Assembly: GCF_017745095.1 (NCBI RefSeq)
Contig: NZ_JAGHZZ010000060.1
Span: forward strand, 116,387 to 180,386
Origin: Sporocytophaga sp.
Lineage (GTDB): Bacteria > Bacteroidota > Bacteroidia > Cytophagales > Cytophagaceae
Reading direction: 5' to 3'
Length of the DNA stretch: 64,000 nt
Below, one piece after another: positions 31,590 to 36,900 of this stretch. The notes beneath the pieces are model-generated. The model saw only the letters and a list, made by a program, of their open reading frames with translations. It made no database searches and was not told where the DNA came from. Each line of letters opens with the position of its first letter. Position 1 is the first letter of the stretch. Both the position numbers and the translations under genes were made by a program.

Positions 31590-31621
31590 CAAAAAAAGCA
31601 GATAGCTCTCACCATCTGCTT
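31590..31621 (-). terminator. Rho-independent terminator, minus strand
   Basis: On the minus strand: stem AAGCAGAT / ATCTGCTT with 10-base loop, followed by seven T. It lies ~185 bp after the stop of the type B CTD gene and ~70 bp before the hydroxylase start, so it ends either the porP/sprF-CTD transcript or the candidate small RNA, or both. Confidence 0.85.
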
Positions 31622-31745
31622 CATTTCAACCAAAAAAATTTATAATTACAAAACATTCACCCAATCCAAGCCAAAGACCTTATACAAGAAAAAATTCACA
31701 ACTGTGATTGTATAAAAAATAAGTTCGCCGATTTAAGAATTAGGG
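31590..31745 (-). ncRNA. Candidate small RNA between CTD protein and hydroxylase
   Basis: A ~155-nt stretch bounded by a promoter-like element (31752-31790, minus strand) and a strong minus-strand terminator at 31590-31621. It has no convincing ORF (only 11- and 18-codon frames). It contains a nested inverted repeat: outer TATACAA (31681-31687) and TTGTATA (31708-31714), inner TCACA-AC-TGTGA (31696-31707), which suggests a structured RNA. The alternative is that this is simply the 3' UTR of the upstream operon. Transcription is not demonstrated. Confidence 0.4.
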
Positions 31746-31751
31746 CAAATA

Positions 31752-31790
31752 TGATCATTCTACAATCAGGTACATGGAATGTAACCCCTC
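31752..31790 (-). promoter_or_regulatory. Two-box element identical to that upstream of the ECF sigma gene
   Basis: Read on the minus strand: GAGGGGTTACA (31790-31780), 14-base spacer, TTGTAGAATGATCA (31765-31752). Both boxes and the spacer length are identical to 34854-34892, while the spacer sequence is different. Conserved boxes with a non-conserved spacer of fixed length are what a sigma-factor promoter looks like. Inferred to be recognised by the neighbouring ECF sigma factor. Confidence 0.6.
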
Positions 31791-31804
31791 TTTTATAATT
31801 TTTT

Positions 31805-33760
31805 TTATTTAATTACAGTAACTACTATTTTCTGATTTTCACCGCATACAATAATATAATCTCCCATTGGTACAACTTCCCCATTATTTCCGGTACCATC
31901 CCATTCAGCAGGAGTTGGAATAGTTTTAATAAGAAGCCCGCTCATATCATAAATCTTTGTCGTCCCCGGAAATCCGATAAAATAAGAAGGCTGGGATGTT
32001 CCGGTAAAGGCAAGTACCTTTTCCGGACAAGGTTCCGCTTTCTTTACTGTAATTATATTATTACTACTTAATGCTTTGCAACCCTGGGAATCTCTGATTT
32101 CAAAATTATAGTTACCTTCTTGCACATTATTAAATATTCCGTTAGGGCTATTACTCACGACAAATCCATCTTTTATCAGATCATAGGTATACGGAAAAGC
32201 TCCATAAAGCGAATCAGGATTAAGCTTAACACTTATATTTTCATTACAAGGAGGATTAATGATTTCAACAGAGATATTTCCTACCGAAAAGCCGTCCTTA
32301 AATTCCACCGCAATATCATCAGAGTTTGAGCATCCATTTTGGTCCTTAACTGTTAATGTGTATATCCCTGTAGCCTGAACTTTAATCGAATCTGCCTTTT
32401 CACCAGTACTCCAGGTATATGACACACCTGAAGTATTTGATTTAATTATAAATGAAGATGCACATACTATAGTATCAGAACCAAGATTTATAGCAGGCAT
32501 ATCAGCTGCCTTAGAAAAATCTACAGTAATACTATCAATGGATTTGCACCCATCACCATCAATTAGAGTAAGATAATACTTTCCTGACTTATTAACTTGA
32601 ATTGTTTGTGAATGATCACCTGTTTCCCATTGATATTTATAACCAGGAGGACCGCTCAGATTAAATGGAGATAGACACAAGACAGAGGTATCCTTTCCCA
32701 GATCAAATTGAACAGGTTTTTTCAATGTGATAAAAATAGAATCTAATACAGTACAAAATTCATTGCCCGTTTTTACTGTATACAATCCCGAAGTATCCAC
32801 TGTAATAGACTTTTCTTGATTACCTGTATTCCATTGATAAAAATAGCCATCCGGAGCATTTAAAGTAATGGTATTTGTACAAATAACTGTATCATTACCA
32901 AGTATCTTTTTAGGCAAAAGATTCACTACCATAGTGTCTTGGGACAAGCATCCCATTGTATCTATCATCTTCACCCAGTATTCACCAGGCTTGTTTATGT
33001 TAATAGATTGTGAAGAATCTCCGGTATTCCAGACATAGATATTAGATTCATTGAAATAGAATGCACCTATTTCGCCTGTCTCTTCACAAATAGTAGTATC
33101 ACTTGATTCAAGTAAATTTTTCCCTTCAGTTATCGTAATTGAAAAAGTATCATTTGCCAAACAGCTTTCTGTTACAGCTTTTACTTTATATTCACCAGGC
33201 CTGCTGTTTTCAGTATTGATGGTTCCTGTAAGAGAATCAATCGCTAAACCATACGGAGTGGAAGAAAAAGTAGGAGCTAAATTATCGATAATTATAGGAA
33301 ACAAGTCTTCTTTACTCCTGCAGCTAACAATCTGAGGATAAACAACTGAAGGAAGGGCTACTGTCAGAGAAGAGACGTCCAGATAAACCGGATTTCCAAA
33401 TGTAGATGAATTATATGAGCCCAATACCATATAGCAACCCATTTTAGGATTATAAACTCTAAACTGATATTCCTCTCCATTCAAAAAGCCATCATTATAA
33501 GCATCTTTACCATATACTCTAAGAACTGAGTCCCCAGGTACTCTGGCATATCCACCACATTTAAAAAAACCTGGGGACTTACTATAAAATGCACCGAGCA
33601 ATAAGGTATCTCCCTCATACAAAGATTGAGTTGTATTTATTTCAATATCTTCGAAAATAGTAGTCTCTTGTACCGCCGTCCATGGTAATTTCTGGCTGTA
33701 TCCTACTGTTGTCGCAAATAGTATGAGATAAATCAGTATTTTGAAGAATCCTTTACTCAT
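31805..33760 (-). CDS. Surface protein with Ig-like repeats, SprB-like repeat and T9SS type B domain
   Basis: 651 residues from the ATG at 33760, chosen because it starts a clear signal peptide (FFKILIYLILFATTVGYSQ); an upstream ATG at 33832 would bury it. The middle has four to five Ig/PKD-like repeats of about 80 residues, each with a pattern such as GSDTIVC, then YTWSTGEKADSIKV, then YTLTVKDQNGC. Next is an SprB-like repeat (YGAFPYTYDLIKDG, then FEIRDSQGCKA). The end, IYDMSGLLIKTI ... WDGTGNNGEVVPMGDYIIV, is a short type B (CHU_C) T9SS sorting domain. It is in an operon with the PorP/SprF gene upstream (58-bp gap). Type B cargo commonly needs a PorP/SprF partner, so the pair fits. Confidence 0.88.
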   Translation of the reverse strand: MSKGFFKILIYLILFATTVGYSQKLPWTAVQETTIFEDIEINTTQSLYEGDTLLLGAFYSKSPGFFKCGGYARVPGDSVLRVYGKDAYNDGFLNGEEYQFRVYNPKMGCYMVLGSYNSSTFGNPVYLDVSSLTVALPSVVYPQIVSCRSKEDLFPIIIDNLAPTFSSTPYGLAIDSLTGTINTENSRPGEYKVKAVTESCLANDTFSITITEGKNLLESSDTTICEETGEIGAFYFNESNIYVWNTGDSSQSININKPGEYWVKMIDTMGCLSQDTMVVNLLPKKILGNDTVICTNTITLNAPDGYFYQWNTGNQEKSITVDTSGLYTVKTGNEFCTVLDSIFITLKKPVQFDLGKDTSVLCLSPFNLSGPPGYKYQWETGDHSQTIQVNKSGKYYLTLIDGDGCKSIDSITVDFSKAADMPAINLGSDTIVCASSFIIKSNTSGVSYTWSTGEKADSIKVQATGIYTLTVKDQNGCSNSDDIAVEFKDGFSVGNISVEIINPPCNENISVKLNPDSLYGAFPYTYDLIKDGFVVSNSPNGIFNNVQEGNYNFEIRDSQGCKALSSNNIITVKKAEPCPEKVLAFTGTSQPSYFIGFPGTTKIYDMSGLLIKTIPTPAEWDGTGNNGEVVPMGDYIIVCGENQKIVVTVIK

Positions 33761-33818: not shown

Positions 33819-34751
33819 TTATTCCGAGTCATCTTCCTCCAACTTGTCTGGACTTCTTTTCTCTTTTATATAGAAGCCCAGTCCGATCTCGTACGTACGC
33901 AGATTAAGTCTGGCATGGGTGCTATATACCTGATAAGAAAAAAAGATGTTTAATTTATTGTCATTCAGATAAATTCCTTCGAGGCCCGCGGTTAAAGCCA
34001 TGCCATTTTTATACTGATATACTGCTCCTGCAGAGAATAATCCGCCGAGGAGCGTACCAAAATATATCTGTGGGAAGGGTCTTTCGCTGTCATTTATCGG
34101 GTTGTTTACGTACCTGATCAGCAAAGCAGATTTTAATGAAATATAGTGATTTAAATGGAAAATTTTACCACAAACAACATTATAATGTCGTGAAAGCCTT
34201 GTCACCTCATTAATTGGTACCACTCTTCCATTAGTTAACTGATTTACTGAGGCTCCGCAAAAAAACTGGTCGTTATAAAGTAATATTCCTGCATTTCCAG
34301 TACTCGTCATGGAATTCGCACCCGCGGAAAGTTGTGTGGCCCCCACTGCATAATTGAATGCTCCCAACGCTAATCCTACTGAAAGATAATTTTTCTTACC
34401 AACAGGCATATGCCAGGCATAACTAACCATTACCTGATTTTTCTTGAAGTATTGGCCTTCTGAAATGCCAATAAAACTCAGACCTACATTGTGAATGCGA
34501 TCATACTTCTGGTAAAATTTAGCCTGAGCATTCAAATAATTCATATGATTGGTTATTCCTTCATAAGCATACCCTCTGTGACCAACATTAATATCATATT
34601 TAAAATTTTCAGAACTCCTTGCAGGATTTGTCAAAGAATAAAATTCACAGAATTGATAGAGTTGAACAGGAAGAAATCTGTTCTCAGCCTGCTGTGCAAT
34701 AGAATTTAAAGACCCAAAAGTTAAAAATAAAAATATTAGATAAATCCTCAT
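33819..34751 (-). CDS. PorP/SprF family outer-membrane protein
   Basis: A 310-residue outer-membrane beta-barrel of the PorP/SprF family, which tethers T9SS type B cargo to the surface. A signal peptide (YLIFLFLTFGSLNSIAQQ) precedes the family start, FYSLTNPARSSENFKYDINV. Further family features are HNVGLSFIGISEGQYFKK, then SYAWHMPVGKKNYLSVGL and a typical end VYSTHARLNLRTYEIGLGFY. Directly downstream lies its likely cargo, and divergently an ECF sigma factor with an anti-sigma factor. A GTTAC-N18-TAG element lies upstream (34808-34833). Confidence 0.9.
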   Translation of the reverse strand: MRIYLIFLFLTFGSLNSIAQQAENRFLPVQLYQFCEFYSLTNPARSSENFKYDINVGHRGYAYEGITNHMNYLNAQAKFYQKYDRIHNVGLSFIGISEGQYFKKNQVMVSYAWHMPVGKKNYLSVGLALGAFNYAVGATQLSAGANSMTSTGNAGILLYNDQFFCGASVNQLTNGRVVPINEVTRLSRHYNVVCGKIFHLNHYISLKSALLIRYVNNPINDSERPFPQIYFGTLLGGLFSAGAVYQYKNGMALTAGLEGIYLNDNKLNIFFSYQVYSTHARLNLRTYEIGLGFYIKEKRSPDKLEEDDSE

Positions 34752-34833: not shown

Positions 34834-34853
34834 TTTTATAAAAAAATTCCACA

Positions 34854-34892
34854 GAGGGGTTACAATTAATTCCTTAATTTGTAGAATGATCA
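34854..34892 (+). promoter_or_regulatory. Candidate autoregulated promoter of the ECF sigma gene
   Basis: GAGGGGTTACA (34854-34864), a 14-base spacer, then TTGTAGAATGATCA (34879-34892), 17 bp before the GTG start of the sigma gene. Identical boxes and spacing occur at 31752-31790 on the minus strand. ECF sigma genes often drive themselves, so this fits; the recognised -35/-10 bases cannot be fixed from two copies. The 5' UTR would be short. Confidence 0.6.
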
Positions 34893-34908
34893 GATAAAAT
34901 CCGGTTCA

Positions 34909-35508
34909 GTGGCTTACAGCAACACCTACATCCTAGAATCTATTGCAGGGAAAGATAATTCACAAATATTATCTTATCTCTACAAGACTTATTTCCCGAG
35001 GATTAAAAAATTAATTATTGAAAATTCAGGAAATTCTGAAGATGCTGAAGATATTTTCCAGGAAGCCATTGTCATTCTATACAGACAGGTGAAACTAAAC
35101 CGGTTTGATTCCACCTATGAAGTCGGAGCATTTATATATTCAGTGGCTCGGAACTTGTGGATCAATGAAGCAAAACGTAGAAAAGTAAAAGAAAAAGTAT
35201 ATAAAGAAGAATCCTCGGCAATAATCTATTCTGAGTCCGATACATTAGACCTGATGATATCAGAAGAAAGGTCTCAACTCTTAACCTCAGTACTTGGGGA
35301 GTTGGGTGATAGATGTAAAGAACTTCTTTCTTACACCATTTATCATAAAATGTCTATGAAAGAAATTTGTGAAAAAATGGGCTTTACTACTGAAAATGGA
35401 GCAAAAACCAGAAACTACAAATGCAAACAGCAGCTGATAAGCTTGCTGAAGAAAAATCCCTTAGTAAAAGAATTAATAAATCATGAGCAACCTGAGAGAC
35501 AGTTTTGA
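34909..35508 (+). CDS. ECF-type RNA polymerase sigma factor
   Basis: A 199-residue sigma-70 family factor with regions 2 and 4 only. Region 2 is visible as SEDAEDIFQEAIVILYRQ and SVARNLWINEAKRRKVKEK; region 4 as LGELGDRCKELLSYTIYH with the helix-turn-helix KMSMKEICEKMGFTTENGAK. The start is GTG at 34909. Its last 26 bases overlap the anti-sigma gene, so the two are translationally coupled, the normal arrangement for sigma and anti-sigma. Divergent to porP/sprF. Inferred regulon: itself, porP/sprF and the candidate small RNA, based on the shared element. Confidence 0.9.
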   Translation: MAYSNTYILESIAGKDNSQILSYLYKTYFPRIKKLIIENSGNSEDAEDIFQEAIVILYRQVKLNRFDSTYEVGAFIYSVARNLWINEAKRRKVKEKVYKEESSAIIYSESDTLDLMISEERSQLLTSVLGELGDRCKELLSYTIYHKMSMKEICEKMGFTTENGAKTRNYKCKQQLISLLKKNPLVKELINHEQPERQF

Positions 35509-36613
35509 GAAGATAGATGAATACCTTAACGGGGAGCTTTCCGGACACAATCTTATTGAATTTAAGGAGATGATGGAAAAGCACGAAAGTCTTGCCGAAG
35601 AGGTGCAATTGCAACAGCTTGCTAATGAAGCAATCGTAGAACTGAATCTGACTGAGCTCAGAAAAGATTTAAAACGCATCTCTTTGAAAGAAAGAACCAC
35701 CAGTCGCTACAAACTATTTGGAAGCCTTGCAGCTGCTGTTGTATTGATTTCAGGTATTACCTACTTTACGCTGTCCCCTAATGCAGATGAATTTGAAGCT
35801 GCAAATCCCCCCCTTGTAAACCCGGCTTCAAAAGAATCACCTATATCCAAAAATGCTAAACTGTCAGAAAAAATAGTAGCTACTCCTAATCACTATACTT
35901 CTGAAATTGCAACTCAAAAACAAACAAATGTTGAGAAAAAAGAGCAGGTTGCATCTTCGTCAACATCGGATCCGCAAAGATTAAAAGATTCTATAATACA
36001 ACTTCCTGCTACTATCACATATTCTAAGTCTAATAATCTGGACATAGAACAAAAGGCAGAGCAATCGAAGGAAAACAATAATCAAAACAGCGGCACGGTT
36101 CCTTGCAAAGCAGAAGCTATAGATGCTTTTATACATATTGAACCTGCTTGTAAGGACCAGAAAGGTTCAGGAAAAATTACAATTGACCTTGCTTCAGTAA
36201 AAGGTGGGAAACCTGGCTATAAGTTTTCACTTAATGGGGGCACCGAGTATCAAGAATTTCCGGTATTTGAAGAGTTAGCTTCCGGGTCAGTTCAGCTCTT
36301 AATCAAAGATGCACAAGGTTGTATATCAAAAAAACATTTGACAATACCTGAGAAAAATTGCTTTAAAGAAGTGATCATTTACCCATTAAAAGGCGAAACC
36401 TGGACAGCTCCTGTTATTTCAAAAGAAAATGTAATTACAATTAAAGATCTTCAAGGCAAAATTTTATTTGAATACAGCTATTCCGATAGTGATAACTTTA
36501 CTTGGGATGGCAAAACAAACGATGGACAAGATTTGTCAATGGGACAATACTATTATACTATTAAAGGAGATAAAGGAAATATTATTAACGGATATATTTC
36601 CATACCTCGCTAA
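35483..36613 (+). CDS. Anti-sigma factor with a type B cargo-like periplasmic half
   Basis: 376 residues, overlapping the sigma gene by 26 bp. Residues 1-75 form a cytosolic helical region (DEYLNGELSGHNLIEFKEM), as in anti-sigma factors; 77-97 is one membrane helix (LFGSLAAAVVLISGITYFTL); 100-205 is a disordered linker; 208-293 is an SprB-like repeat with Cys pairs (FIHIEPACKD, then LLIKDAQGC); 294-376 resembles a T9SS type B C-terminal domain (ITIKDLQGKILFEY, then FTWDGKTNDGQDLSMGQYYY, ending NGYISIPR). The exported protein at 31805-33760 has the same last two domains. Having one membrane anchor, this protein should hold the domain in the periplasm, where it could sense T9SS components or cargo. 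The sensing role is inference; the domain match is by eye. Confidence 0.8.
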   Translation: MSNLRDSFEKIDEYLNGELSGHNLIEFKEMMEKHESLAEEVQLQQLANEAIVELNLTELRKDLKRISLKERTTSRYKLFGSLAAAVVLISGITYFTLSPNADEFEAANPPLVNPASKESPISKNAKLSEKIVATPNHYTSEIATQKQTNVEKKEQVASSSTSDPQRLKDSIIQLPATITYSKSNNLDIEQKAEQSKENNNQNSGTVPCKAEAIDAFIHIEPACKDQKGSGKITIDLASVKGGKPGYKFSLNGGTEYQEFPVFEELASGSVQLLIKDAQGCISKKHLTIPEKNCFKEVIIYPLKGETWTAPVISKENVITIKDLQGKILFEYSYSDSDNFTWDGKTNDGQDLSMGQYYYTIKGDKGNIINGYISIPR

Positions 36614-36615
36614 CC

Positions 36616-36900
36616 TTACCACATCTCATCTATACTGCGGTCATAATTATGATAATATCTGTAATTATAAGGATAATAATTCCAACCATAACCGTAATTA
36701 TAGTTCTGGTAACCCGGGTTTGAATAAGGGTAGAATGATCCATAATCATTCCAGTACGGATCATAATTATTATAGTAAGAATACGGATAATAATCATATC
36801 CATAGCTATTTGGATATGTTCTGCCAACATAAGTTCCCGAAGAACAAGCAATCATAAAAAATATTAACAAAGAAATAATGAATAACCCCAACCGCTTCAT
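36616..36900 (-). CDS. Small Tyr/Asn-rich lipoprotein
   Basis: A 94-residue lipoprotein. The lipobox MIAC puts the acylated Cys at residue 19. The mature part is dominated by Tyr, Asn, Gly and Pro (NSYGYDYYPYSYYNNYDPYW and similar), ending in DRSIDEMW. Low-complexity Tyr-rich lipoproteins of this size are common in Bacteroidota but uncharacterised. Its stop lies 3 bp from the stop of the convergent anti-sigma gene, with no terminator between, so the two transcripts probably overlap. Confidence 0.7.
   Translation of the reverse strand: MKRLGLFIISLLIFFMIACSSGTYVGRTYPNSYGYDYYPYSYYNNYDPYWNDYGSFYPYSNPGYQNYNYGYGWNYYPYNYRYYHNYDRSIDEMW

Follow-up and report, generated by a model that had tools for sequence, protein, structure and literature searches.

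A Sporocytophaga anti-sigma factor ending in an altered type IX secretion cargo C-terminus, encoded in a repeated module with a PorP/SprF carrier

Results

In a 64,000-nucleotide (nt) stretch of a Sporocytophaga sp. contig (NZ_JAGHZZ010000060.1; hereafter the window), from a host group known for gliding and cellulose breakdown, we examined an anti-sigma factor of 376 residues (35483-36613, + strand) whose periplasmic half, judged by its sequence profiles, is an altered copy of the C-terminus of a type IX secretion system (T9SS) surface protein. Its gene stands last in a set of four: a surface protein, or cargo (31805-33760, -), a PorP/SprF-family outer-membrane carrier (33819-34751, -), an extracytoplasmic function (ECF) sigma factor (34909-35508, +) and the anti-sigma factor. 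We tentatively propose, giving the idea nearly an even chance, that these genes form a trans-envelope module in which the C-terminal domain (CTD) of the anti-sigma factor docks on its cognate PorP/SprF protein and reports carrier occupancy to the sigma factor. The neighbourhood with a carrier gene suggests that such cells monitor the state of the carriers for their own surface proteins. With more reserve, we consider it possible that a secretion and anchoring signal was captured by the anti-sigma factor and now acts in each module as a TonB-independent gauge of carrier occupancy that sets matching surface-protein synthesis.

The anti-sigma factor and its kinship to type B CTDs

The anti-sigma open reading frame (ORF) was recovered as the first-pass annotation had given it, together with all four sequence motifs quoted there as typical of type B CTDs; it overlaps the end of the sigma ORF. 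In an AlphaFold2 (AF2) model, three N-terminal helices (residues 3-15, 22-33 and 35-97), the third continuing through the membrane segment, are followed by disorder at residues 98-204 and by two beta domains with a predicted local distance difference test (pLDDT) score of about 90. On the + strand, the protein comprises an N-terminal helical domain, presumed to bind sigma (residues 1-76; 35483-35710), a transmembrane segment read from the sequence and from hydropathy in homologues (residues ~77-97; 35711-35773), the disordered linker (residues 98-204, pLDDT < 50; 35774-36094), an SprB-like domain supported by profile comparison and the AF2 model (residues 208-293; 36104-36361) and a FlgD_ig/CHU_C-like domain that we call the CTD mimic (residues 294-376; 36362-36610). 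The SprB-like domain has four cysteines that are invariant in the 11 paralogues of this genome. Two of them, C223 and C293, are jointly absent in L032, L033 and L037 (alignment A8), and this shared loss suggests that they pair.

The helical N-terminal domain, the single transmembrane segment and the position of the gene directly after a sigma gene are those of an anti-sigma factor. No N-terminal Sec signal peptide was evident by eye; the transmembrane segment is internal, at about residues 77-97. Across 70 homologues the hydropathy maximum begins at residue 72-104 (median 80), and the linker, rich in S, K, T, E and N, has a median length of about 102 residues (standard deviation 9, range 89-126), a rough measure that starts at the hydropathy maximum and stops 170 residues short of the C-terminus. 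A profile of the N-terminal domain matched the protein directly downstream of 58 of the 81 sigma genes in the scan described below and had no match in the module cargos by profile-profile comparison. The curated anti-sigma model NF052375 matched 1 of 13 family members (E 0.003), and no FecR or STN domain was matched at E 0.01 in the 11 own-genome paralogues or the 13 members of A8.

Among Pfam models, FlgD_ig (PF13860) matched residues 314-365 of the anti-sigma factor above its cut-off (E 1.5e-7, 31.7 bits, cut-off 27), CHU_C (PF13585) matched residues 312-374 below it (E 3.7e-5, 24.2 bits, cut-off 27) and the SprB match was weak (E 0.043). The type B model TIGR04131 gave E 2.8e-5 and 24.2 bits, short of its cut-off of 35. 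The predicted similarity to type B CTD profiles is thus present, at scores that do not reach the curated cut-offs of either model. Among relatives CHU_C is the commonest family match at E <= 0.01 (10/11 own-genome paralogues, 12/13 proteins of A8), followed by FlgD_ig at E 0.01 (7/11 and 8/13) and TIGR04131 (6/13); two relatives pass the CHU_C cut-off, the anti-sigma factor of L213 with 41.6 bits and that of L102 with 28 bits.

The neighbouring exported protein had been described as ending in the same two domains in the same order, and profile-profile comparison bore this out. The anti-sigma CTD matched the cargo CTD with P 7.6e-12, and the SprB-like domain matched cargo residues 488-578, immediately before the cargo CTD, with P 5.2e-13; by this measure the last two domains of the two proteins are homologous. 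On the - strand the cargo consists of Ig-like stretches, the SprB-like domain (32027-32299) and the CTD (31808-32026), as read from profiles and relatives, with possible starts at 33760 or 33832. Its own sequence had no TIGR04131 or CHU_C match and a FlgD_ig match below cut-off (E 9.4e-4), so its CTD was assigned through relatives. The view of the periplasmic half as a copy of a type B cargo held in part: it is homologous to the cargo C-terminus, but the copy is partial, lacks a PNGDG block (see below) and scores under the type B cut-offs. On these profiles it is an altered cargo C-terminus that is related to type B CTDs and is not a full member of that family.

In the AF2 model, strands at residues 315-321, 327-334, 354-361 and 367-374 (pLDDT about 87-95) form a four-stranded sheet which, with a W-x-G motif, is as found in type B CTDs; both features fit FlgD_ig equally well. 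Among PDB sequences the whole anti-sigma profile matched best the C-terminal part of GhpA, a grappling hook protein from Aureispira (E 1.4e-22), and in Foldseek searches the anti-sigma and cargo models had identical top two matches, 9flw (GhpA) and 6za2 (PorU). Structure comparison of the anti-sigma C-terminus also recovered the T9SS proteins PorZ (Z 8.4, 2.5 Å over 79 residues) and PorU (Z 9.1, with a root-mean-square deviation of 11.5), but the matches of both models stood among many Ig-like folds of similar score, including unrelated proteins with Z up to 8.9 (streptococcal proteases, 7.0-8.9); Z under 8 may reflect no more than a common arrangement.

The module recurs with porP and a CTD-bearing surface protein

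This genome holds 11 full-length copies of the module, each with sigma factor, anti-sigma factor, porP and a CTD-bearing protein; their upstream sequences differ by eye. Genome G003 has five modules. Full-length matches were found in 15 of 19 genomes of the same family and in 10 of 69 drawn from the same order, in four families. The other 295 genomes, drawn phylum-wide, gave no full-length matches, which is weak evidence because at most six candidates were scored per genome. Hosts in the sigma-seeded scan included a Sporocytophaga sp. metagenome-assembled genome (MAG), Cytophaga aurantiaca, Xanthocytophaga flavus, MAGs of Cytophagaceae and Cytophagales, two MAGs labelled Flavobacteriales and one labelled Chitinophagaceae (L032), whose label is doubtful.

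We assembled 70 distinct modules, each found either in the sigma scan or through a full-length match to the anti-sigma factor. The anti-sigma factors are thus full length by construction, and porP and cargo were not selected for; six duplicate loci were removed (76 rows to 70), and split or broken anti-sigmas (L168, the L030 variant, the G018 pieces) and variants with one mimic domain were excluded before the count. A porP gene lay within 5 kb in 66 modules, a CTD-bearing surface protein within 6.5 kb in 67, and both in 65, and the porP/cargo neighbourhood is general across modules. By these limits L108, with porP about 6.7 kb away, is uncounted, and L163 is counted as porP-positive though its ORF is split in two. 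The modules without porP are L186, L195 and L037, all near contig ends, and L207; cargo is absent from L207, L037 and L210, of which L210 lies close to the end of its contig. Sigma and anti-sigma ORFs overlap by 4 nt in 42/70 modules.

In 53 of the 70 modules porP is divergent upstream and the cargo gene lies downstream in sigma orientation, as does the cargo gene in 54 of the 65 complete modules. The window copy has a minority layout, common to L170, L176 and L180, in which cargo sits in the porP operon. The first-pass annotation had placed PorP/SprF between cargo and anti-sigma factor; porP does lie there, and so does the sigma gene.

Four variants retain one mimic domain. Two anti-sigmas have the SprB-like domain and no CTD (L027, 4683-9057; L215, 2952-7326), both beside porP and a CTD-bearing protein. 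In L027 the cargo combines RCC1 repeats with a CHU_C domain (E 3.7e-24), and porP lies downstream. Two others have the CTD and no SprB-like domain (L213, 5486-9726; L214, 2805-7013) and are followed on the same strand by a CTD-bearing protein and porP; in both, the anti-sigma lacks PNGDG and the cargo has it. A further locus (L168, 5297-9837; G018:C7) appears to be a decaying congener copy, with anti-sigma and cargo split into separate ORFs.

That the mimic goes with PorP/SprF, as had been suggested, was also seen in a scan with a profile of 12 own-genome sigma factors, of which 11 belong to modules. From a longer list we kept the best 80 loci, and these held 81 sigma genes at E < 1e-30, 12 of which had an anti-sigma bearing both mimic domains. 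A porP gene lay within 5 kb of 11 of these 12 versus 1 of the 69 others (Fisher p 1.2e-11, a value that overstates independence because the seeds are module sigmas and the 12 mimic loci are their closest relatives). The mimic locus without porP (L037) begins 95 bases into its contig, and in the single porP-positive locus among the others (L030) the anti-sigma is split, with its SprB portion encoded by an ORF of its own. Proteins with a related N-terminus and another C-terminus, namely trypsin-like (L038), TPR-like (L051, below cut-off) and rotamase (L106), had no porP in the flanking DNA examined. The trypsin-like protease domain of L038 (8515-9606) scored E 1.2e-28 and the rotamase domain of L106 (8552-11071) E 1e-21.

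The mimic departs from cargo at the PNGDG block

The block PNGDG near the start of the CTD, by a strict pattern, is present in 0/70 anti-sigmas versus 50/67 cargos, and by a loose pattern in 1/70 versus 53/67. The W-x-G motif is retained on both sides (69/70 anti-sigmas, 65/67 cargos). Near the PNGDG position, 37/70 anti-sigmas and 0/67 cargos carry a P-x-x-G-E-x-W-like motif (pattern P..[GS][EDQ].[WLFVY]), and a looser version matches 47/70 and 9/67. The window cargo also lacks the block, as do 17/67 cargos in total by the strict pattern. Published work is cited here and below from excerpts. The CTD of SprB has five conserved motifs, each required for secretion or SprF recognition (PMC12618676), and the PNGDG block probably corresponds to motif A of those five.

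Other genes of the window locus

The ORF at 34909-35508 (+, GTG start) is an ECF sigma factor by its region 2 (Sigma70_r2, PF04542, E 3.4e-10, 40 bits, cut-off 24) and by the overall ECF profile (TIGR02937, 73 bits, cut-off 42.9); region 4 models scored below cut-off. The carrier at 33819-34751 (-) matched PF11751 (E 4.8e-22; 79.2 bits, above the gathering score of 22.3) and, under its cut-off of 90.55, TIGR03519 (79.7 bits). PF11751 matches 12/12 proteins of PorP set A3. Convergent with the anti-sigma gene, with stop codons 2 nt apart, is a small tyrosine-rich lipoprotein-like ORF (36616-36900, -).

A promoter-like motif and a candidate small RNA

The motif GTT(T)AC-N13-19-[TCG]GTA occurs in the 150-nt start region of 38 of the 70 module sigma genes, compared with a mean of 0.8 and at most 4 in mononucleotide shuffles. 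The pattern was written after viewing some of these sequences, the shuffles preserve mononucleotide composition alone, and each close orthologue enters the count by itself. We read the motif as a sign that the sigma factor may autoregulate its own operon. On the complementary strand of these 150-nt regions it was found in 0/70, and there is no sign of shared porP control there.

In the window the candidate autoregulated sigma promoter (GGGGTTACA-N14-TTGTAGAATGATC; 34856-34891, +) is supported by a repeat and by congener alignment. The repeat (31749-31807 and 34837-34895) also holds a second copy of the promoter-like site directly past the cargo stop codon (31753-31788, -). A mobile or invertible segment bounded by inverted repeats would look similar; we rejected this, as each copy stays at its position in three congeners that share the gene order, and the conserved core is promoter-like. 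On these grounds we take the two copies as putative promoters served by a single sigma factor. Both can equally be read as sigma-70-like (GTTACA-17-TAGAAT); a sigma-70-like scan overall gave no more sites than shuffles did (22 versus 21.3). The window promoter pattern has three matches in the genome and a reversed control has none. The third match (G000:C29:16760-16787) points antisense into a CRP-like gene and was not taken as a target.

Directly after the cargo gene, downstream of the site at 31753-31788 (-), we predict from sequence a candidate sigma-dependent small RNA of about 150 nt (31595-31748, -) with a terminator-like hairpin (31622-31595). It is single-copy, is present in three congeners and has no Rfam match. 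Among nine 5' regions, from eight genes in the vicinity, none stands out for pairing with it (z -1.2 to 1.3), and covariation lends little support, with a two-sided change in 1 of 27 pairs across four sequences. Mean identity among congeners is 87% for both the candidate RNA and the sigma upstream stretch; since it is no higher than in the latter, conservation alone does not single out the RNA.

Discussion

A possible gauge of carrier occupancy

We propose that the anti-sigma factor would hold the sigma factor at the inner membrane while a flexible tether of conserved length brings the SprB-like and CTD-mimic half near the outer membrane. There the mimic may dock on its cognate PorP/SprF, at the periplasmic face or inside the lumen, in the place of a periplasmic carrier partner such as those published. 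Docking would compete with, or respond to, loading of the carrier by its own surface protein, so that empty versus filled carriers are reported, and the dock state would decide whether sigma is retained or lost, through a conformational change or exposure to proteolysis. Freed sigma would transcribe its own operon, cargo gene included in 54 of the 65 complete modules; empty carriers would turn cargo synthesis on and filled carriers would turn it off. Such a supply gauge is what best fits the usual layout, in which the sigma operon includes cargo but not porP. With that layout an on-when-empty switch would balance supply, whereas the opposite sign would tend to run away.

Several observations are consistent with this proposal. 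They include the homology of both mimic domains to the end of the cargo, the porP and cargo counts, the lack of porP beside anti-sigmas with other C-termini, the conserved linker length, the promoter-like motif and a positive partial correlation between anti-CTD and PorP distances (0.45, see below). The variant anti-sigmas with one mimic domain (L027, L215, L213 and L214) still lie beside porP and a CTD-bearing protein. Type B cargos and their carriers form specific pairs, with some crosstalk, and are thought to be needed in stoichiometric amounts; cognate pairs reach an iPTM above 0.8 (PMC12618676). SprF becomes disulfide-linked to periplasmic GldK only if SprB has been exported and loaded (PMC12635249); loading of a carrier can thus show at its periplasmic face. 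Both periplasmic PorE and the surface protein PG1035 are bound by PorP (PMC9143113), and the signalling domain of FoxA binds FoxR in the absence of signal, shielding it from proteolysis (PMC11637429).

Other points weigh against it. The contact between anti-sigma and PorP is one that we infer from sequence. In published models carriers hold cargo at the cell surface, while the mimic, being anchored in the inner membrane, must bind a different face or extend through the barrel. In the window, cargo sits in the porP operon and is not under the sigma promoter, and a supply gauge there would therefore need the candidate RNA or distant genes. L207 lacks porP and cargo alike across 3.6 kb of upstream and 6 kb of downstream DNA, and over that range it is a genuine exception. 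The association with porP in the sigma scan is confounded by relatedness. We also compared distances among the parts of 64 modules (64 of the 65 complete modules passed the length filter), using partial correlations given sigma. The highest was that of anti-CTD with PorP (0.45), compared with 0.35 for cargo-CTD/PorP, 0.31 for anti-N/PorP, 0.32 for anti-SprB/PorP, 0.33 for anti-CTD/cargo-CTD and 0.38 for anti-CTD/cargo N-terminus, but the excess over the first four of these pairs was non-significant (differences 0.09-0.13, z 1.0-1.3; jackknife, 34 clusters) and all nine tested pairs were positive (permutation p 0.002-0.03), as expected of co-inherited genes. We set aside specific coevolution of the anti-sigma CTD with PorP, the correlation being positive and not specific.

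The module might instead carry out cell-surface signalling proper, which we think unlikely though deserving serious attention: a leucine-rich repeat (LRR) or Ig-like surface protein held on PorP would be a receptor, and its ligand would alter PorP and thereby the docked anti-sigma CTD, as FecA acts on FecR but with no TonB-dependent receptor. Of the 11 own-genome cargos, 9 have Pfam LRR matches (we used this count in favour of a crude LRR regular expression, matched by 1/67 cargos and set aside), the N-terminal parts of the cargos track the sigma tree least (raw r 0.26), and the 11 copies have upstream sequences that differ by eye. The binding of FoxR by the FoxA signalling domain (PMC11637429) and the proposed relay of a surface signal to PorXY-SigP by PorA, a CTD surface protein of Porphyromonas gingivalis (PMC7712824), point the same way. 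However, the ligand is hypothetical, two of the 11 cargos, the window's among them, have no LRR match, and a sensor of ligand would have no need to mimic the cargo's own CTD, a feature that speaks for competition with cargo. It is improbable that the anti-sigma CTD is a live export signal that the T9SS engages and pulls, with sigma release reporting translocon activity. An SprB-like domain plus CTD does resemble an extended type B signal, whose minimal region is up to 235 residues (PMC12618676), the linker of about 100 residues is flexible, and SprA is present in this genome. But the PNGDG block occurs in 0/70 (strict) or 1/70 (loose) anti-sigmas, and each of the five SprB CTD motifs is needed for secretion or carrier recognition (PMC12618676); this objection is weakened in turn by the fact that we infer the identity of the block with motif A and that 17/67 cargos, the window's included, also lack it.

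We regard as quite improbable a direct binding of cargo before export, through CTD-CTD or SprB-SprB contacts that would sense unexported cargo. We know of no dimerising type B CTD, which we counted against this explanation. Both proteins do have the same two domains in the same order, and the partial correlation of anti-CTD with cargo-CTD is 0.33; it lies below that with PorP by a non-significant difference. Finally, the C-terminal domains could be generic Ig-like folds recruited for another use, with a neighbourhood due to co-inheritance. FlgD_ig is the best Pfam match of the window copy, many unrelated Ig-like proteins appear among the structure matches, some with Z equal to that of T9SS proteins, and the modules are related by descent. 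Set against this are CHU_C matches in 12/13 (A8) and 10/11 (own-genome) members, porP in 66/70 modules from several families, and the GhpA C-terminus as best PDB sequence match (E 1.4e-22), and we find this explanation highly improbable.

If the proposed carrier-occupancy reading is true, the module would be a per-cargo feedback device, repeated 11 times in this genome, and would connect the cell surface or carrier with transcription without TonB. A tethered, unexported CTD would have to contact PorP/SprF at the periplasmic side or lumen, which bears on CTD contact sites. Such a device would bear on how T9SS bacteria keep each surface adhesin in balance with the carrier dedicated to it. Published regulation of the T9SS, in the excerpts of the papers cited here, acts on the machinery and not per cargo.

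Comparison with known systems

Among the matches listed in a search of open-licence PMC literature, which holds no preprints, we found no description of this architecture. Its parts have known counterparts. In the T9SS, the type B cargo-carrier pairs SprB-SprF and PG1035-PorP-PorE are already known and use the same carrier family, related CTDs and adjoining genes; unlike them, the module adds a sigma factor and an anti-sigma whose CTD has no PNGDG block. The published periplasmic partners of these carriers are PorE, PorK and GldK (PMC12635249, PMC9143113). SprF uses a Cys-X-Cys motif, whereas module carriers mostly lack it (C.C in 3/66; a cysteine within the last 40 residues in 11/66). The PorA-PorXY-SigP system of P. 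gingivalis, also already known, is alike in that a CTD-bearing protein influences an ECF sigma factor (PMC7712824), but there a separate surface protein acts via a two-component system, while in the module the CTD is fused to the anti-sigma itself. The SM6 ECF-type promoters of Flavobacterium psychrophilum likewise tie an ECF/anti-sigma system to T9SS gene promoters (PMC9723704); the excerpts of that paper mention no anti-sigma CTD or porP/cargo module. FecI-FecR-FecA and FoxI-FoxR-FoxA share with the module an ECF sigma factor, a single-pass anti-sigma with a periplasmic domain and a co-encoded outer-membrane protein. They differ in that the outer-membrane protein of the module is a PorP/SprF carrier and not a TonB-dependent transducer, and in that the periplasmic domain of the module's anti-sigma mimics a CTD and does not match FecR/STN. 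We class the module as a variant of ECF trans-envelope signalling.

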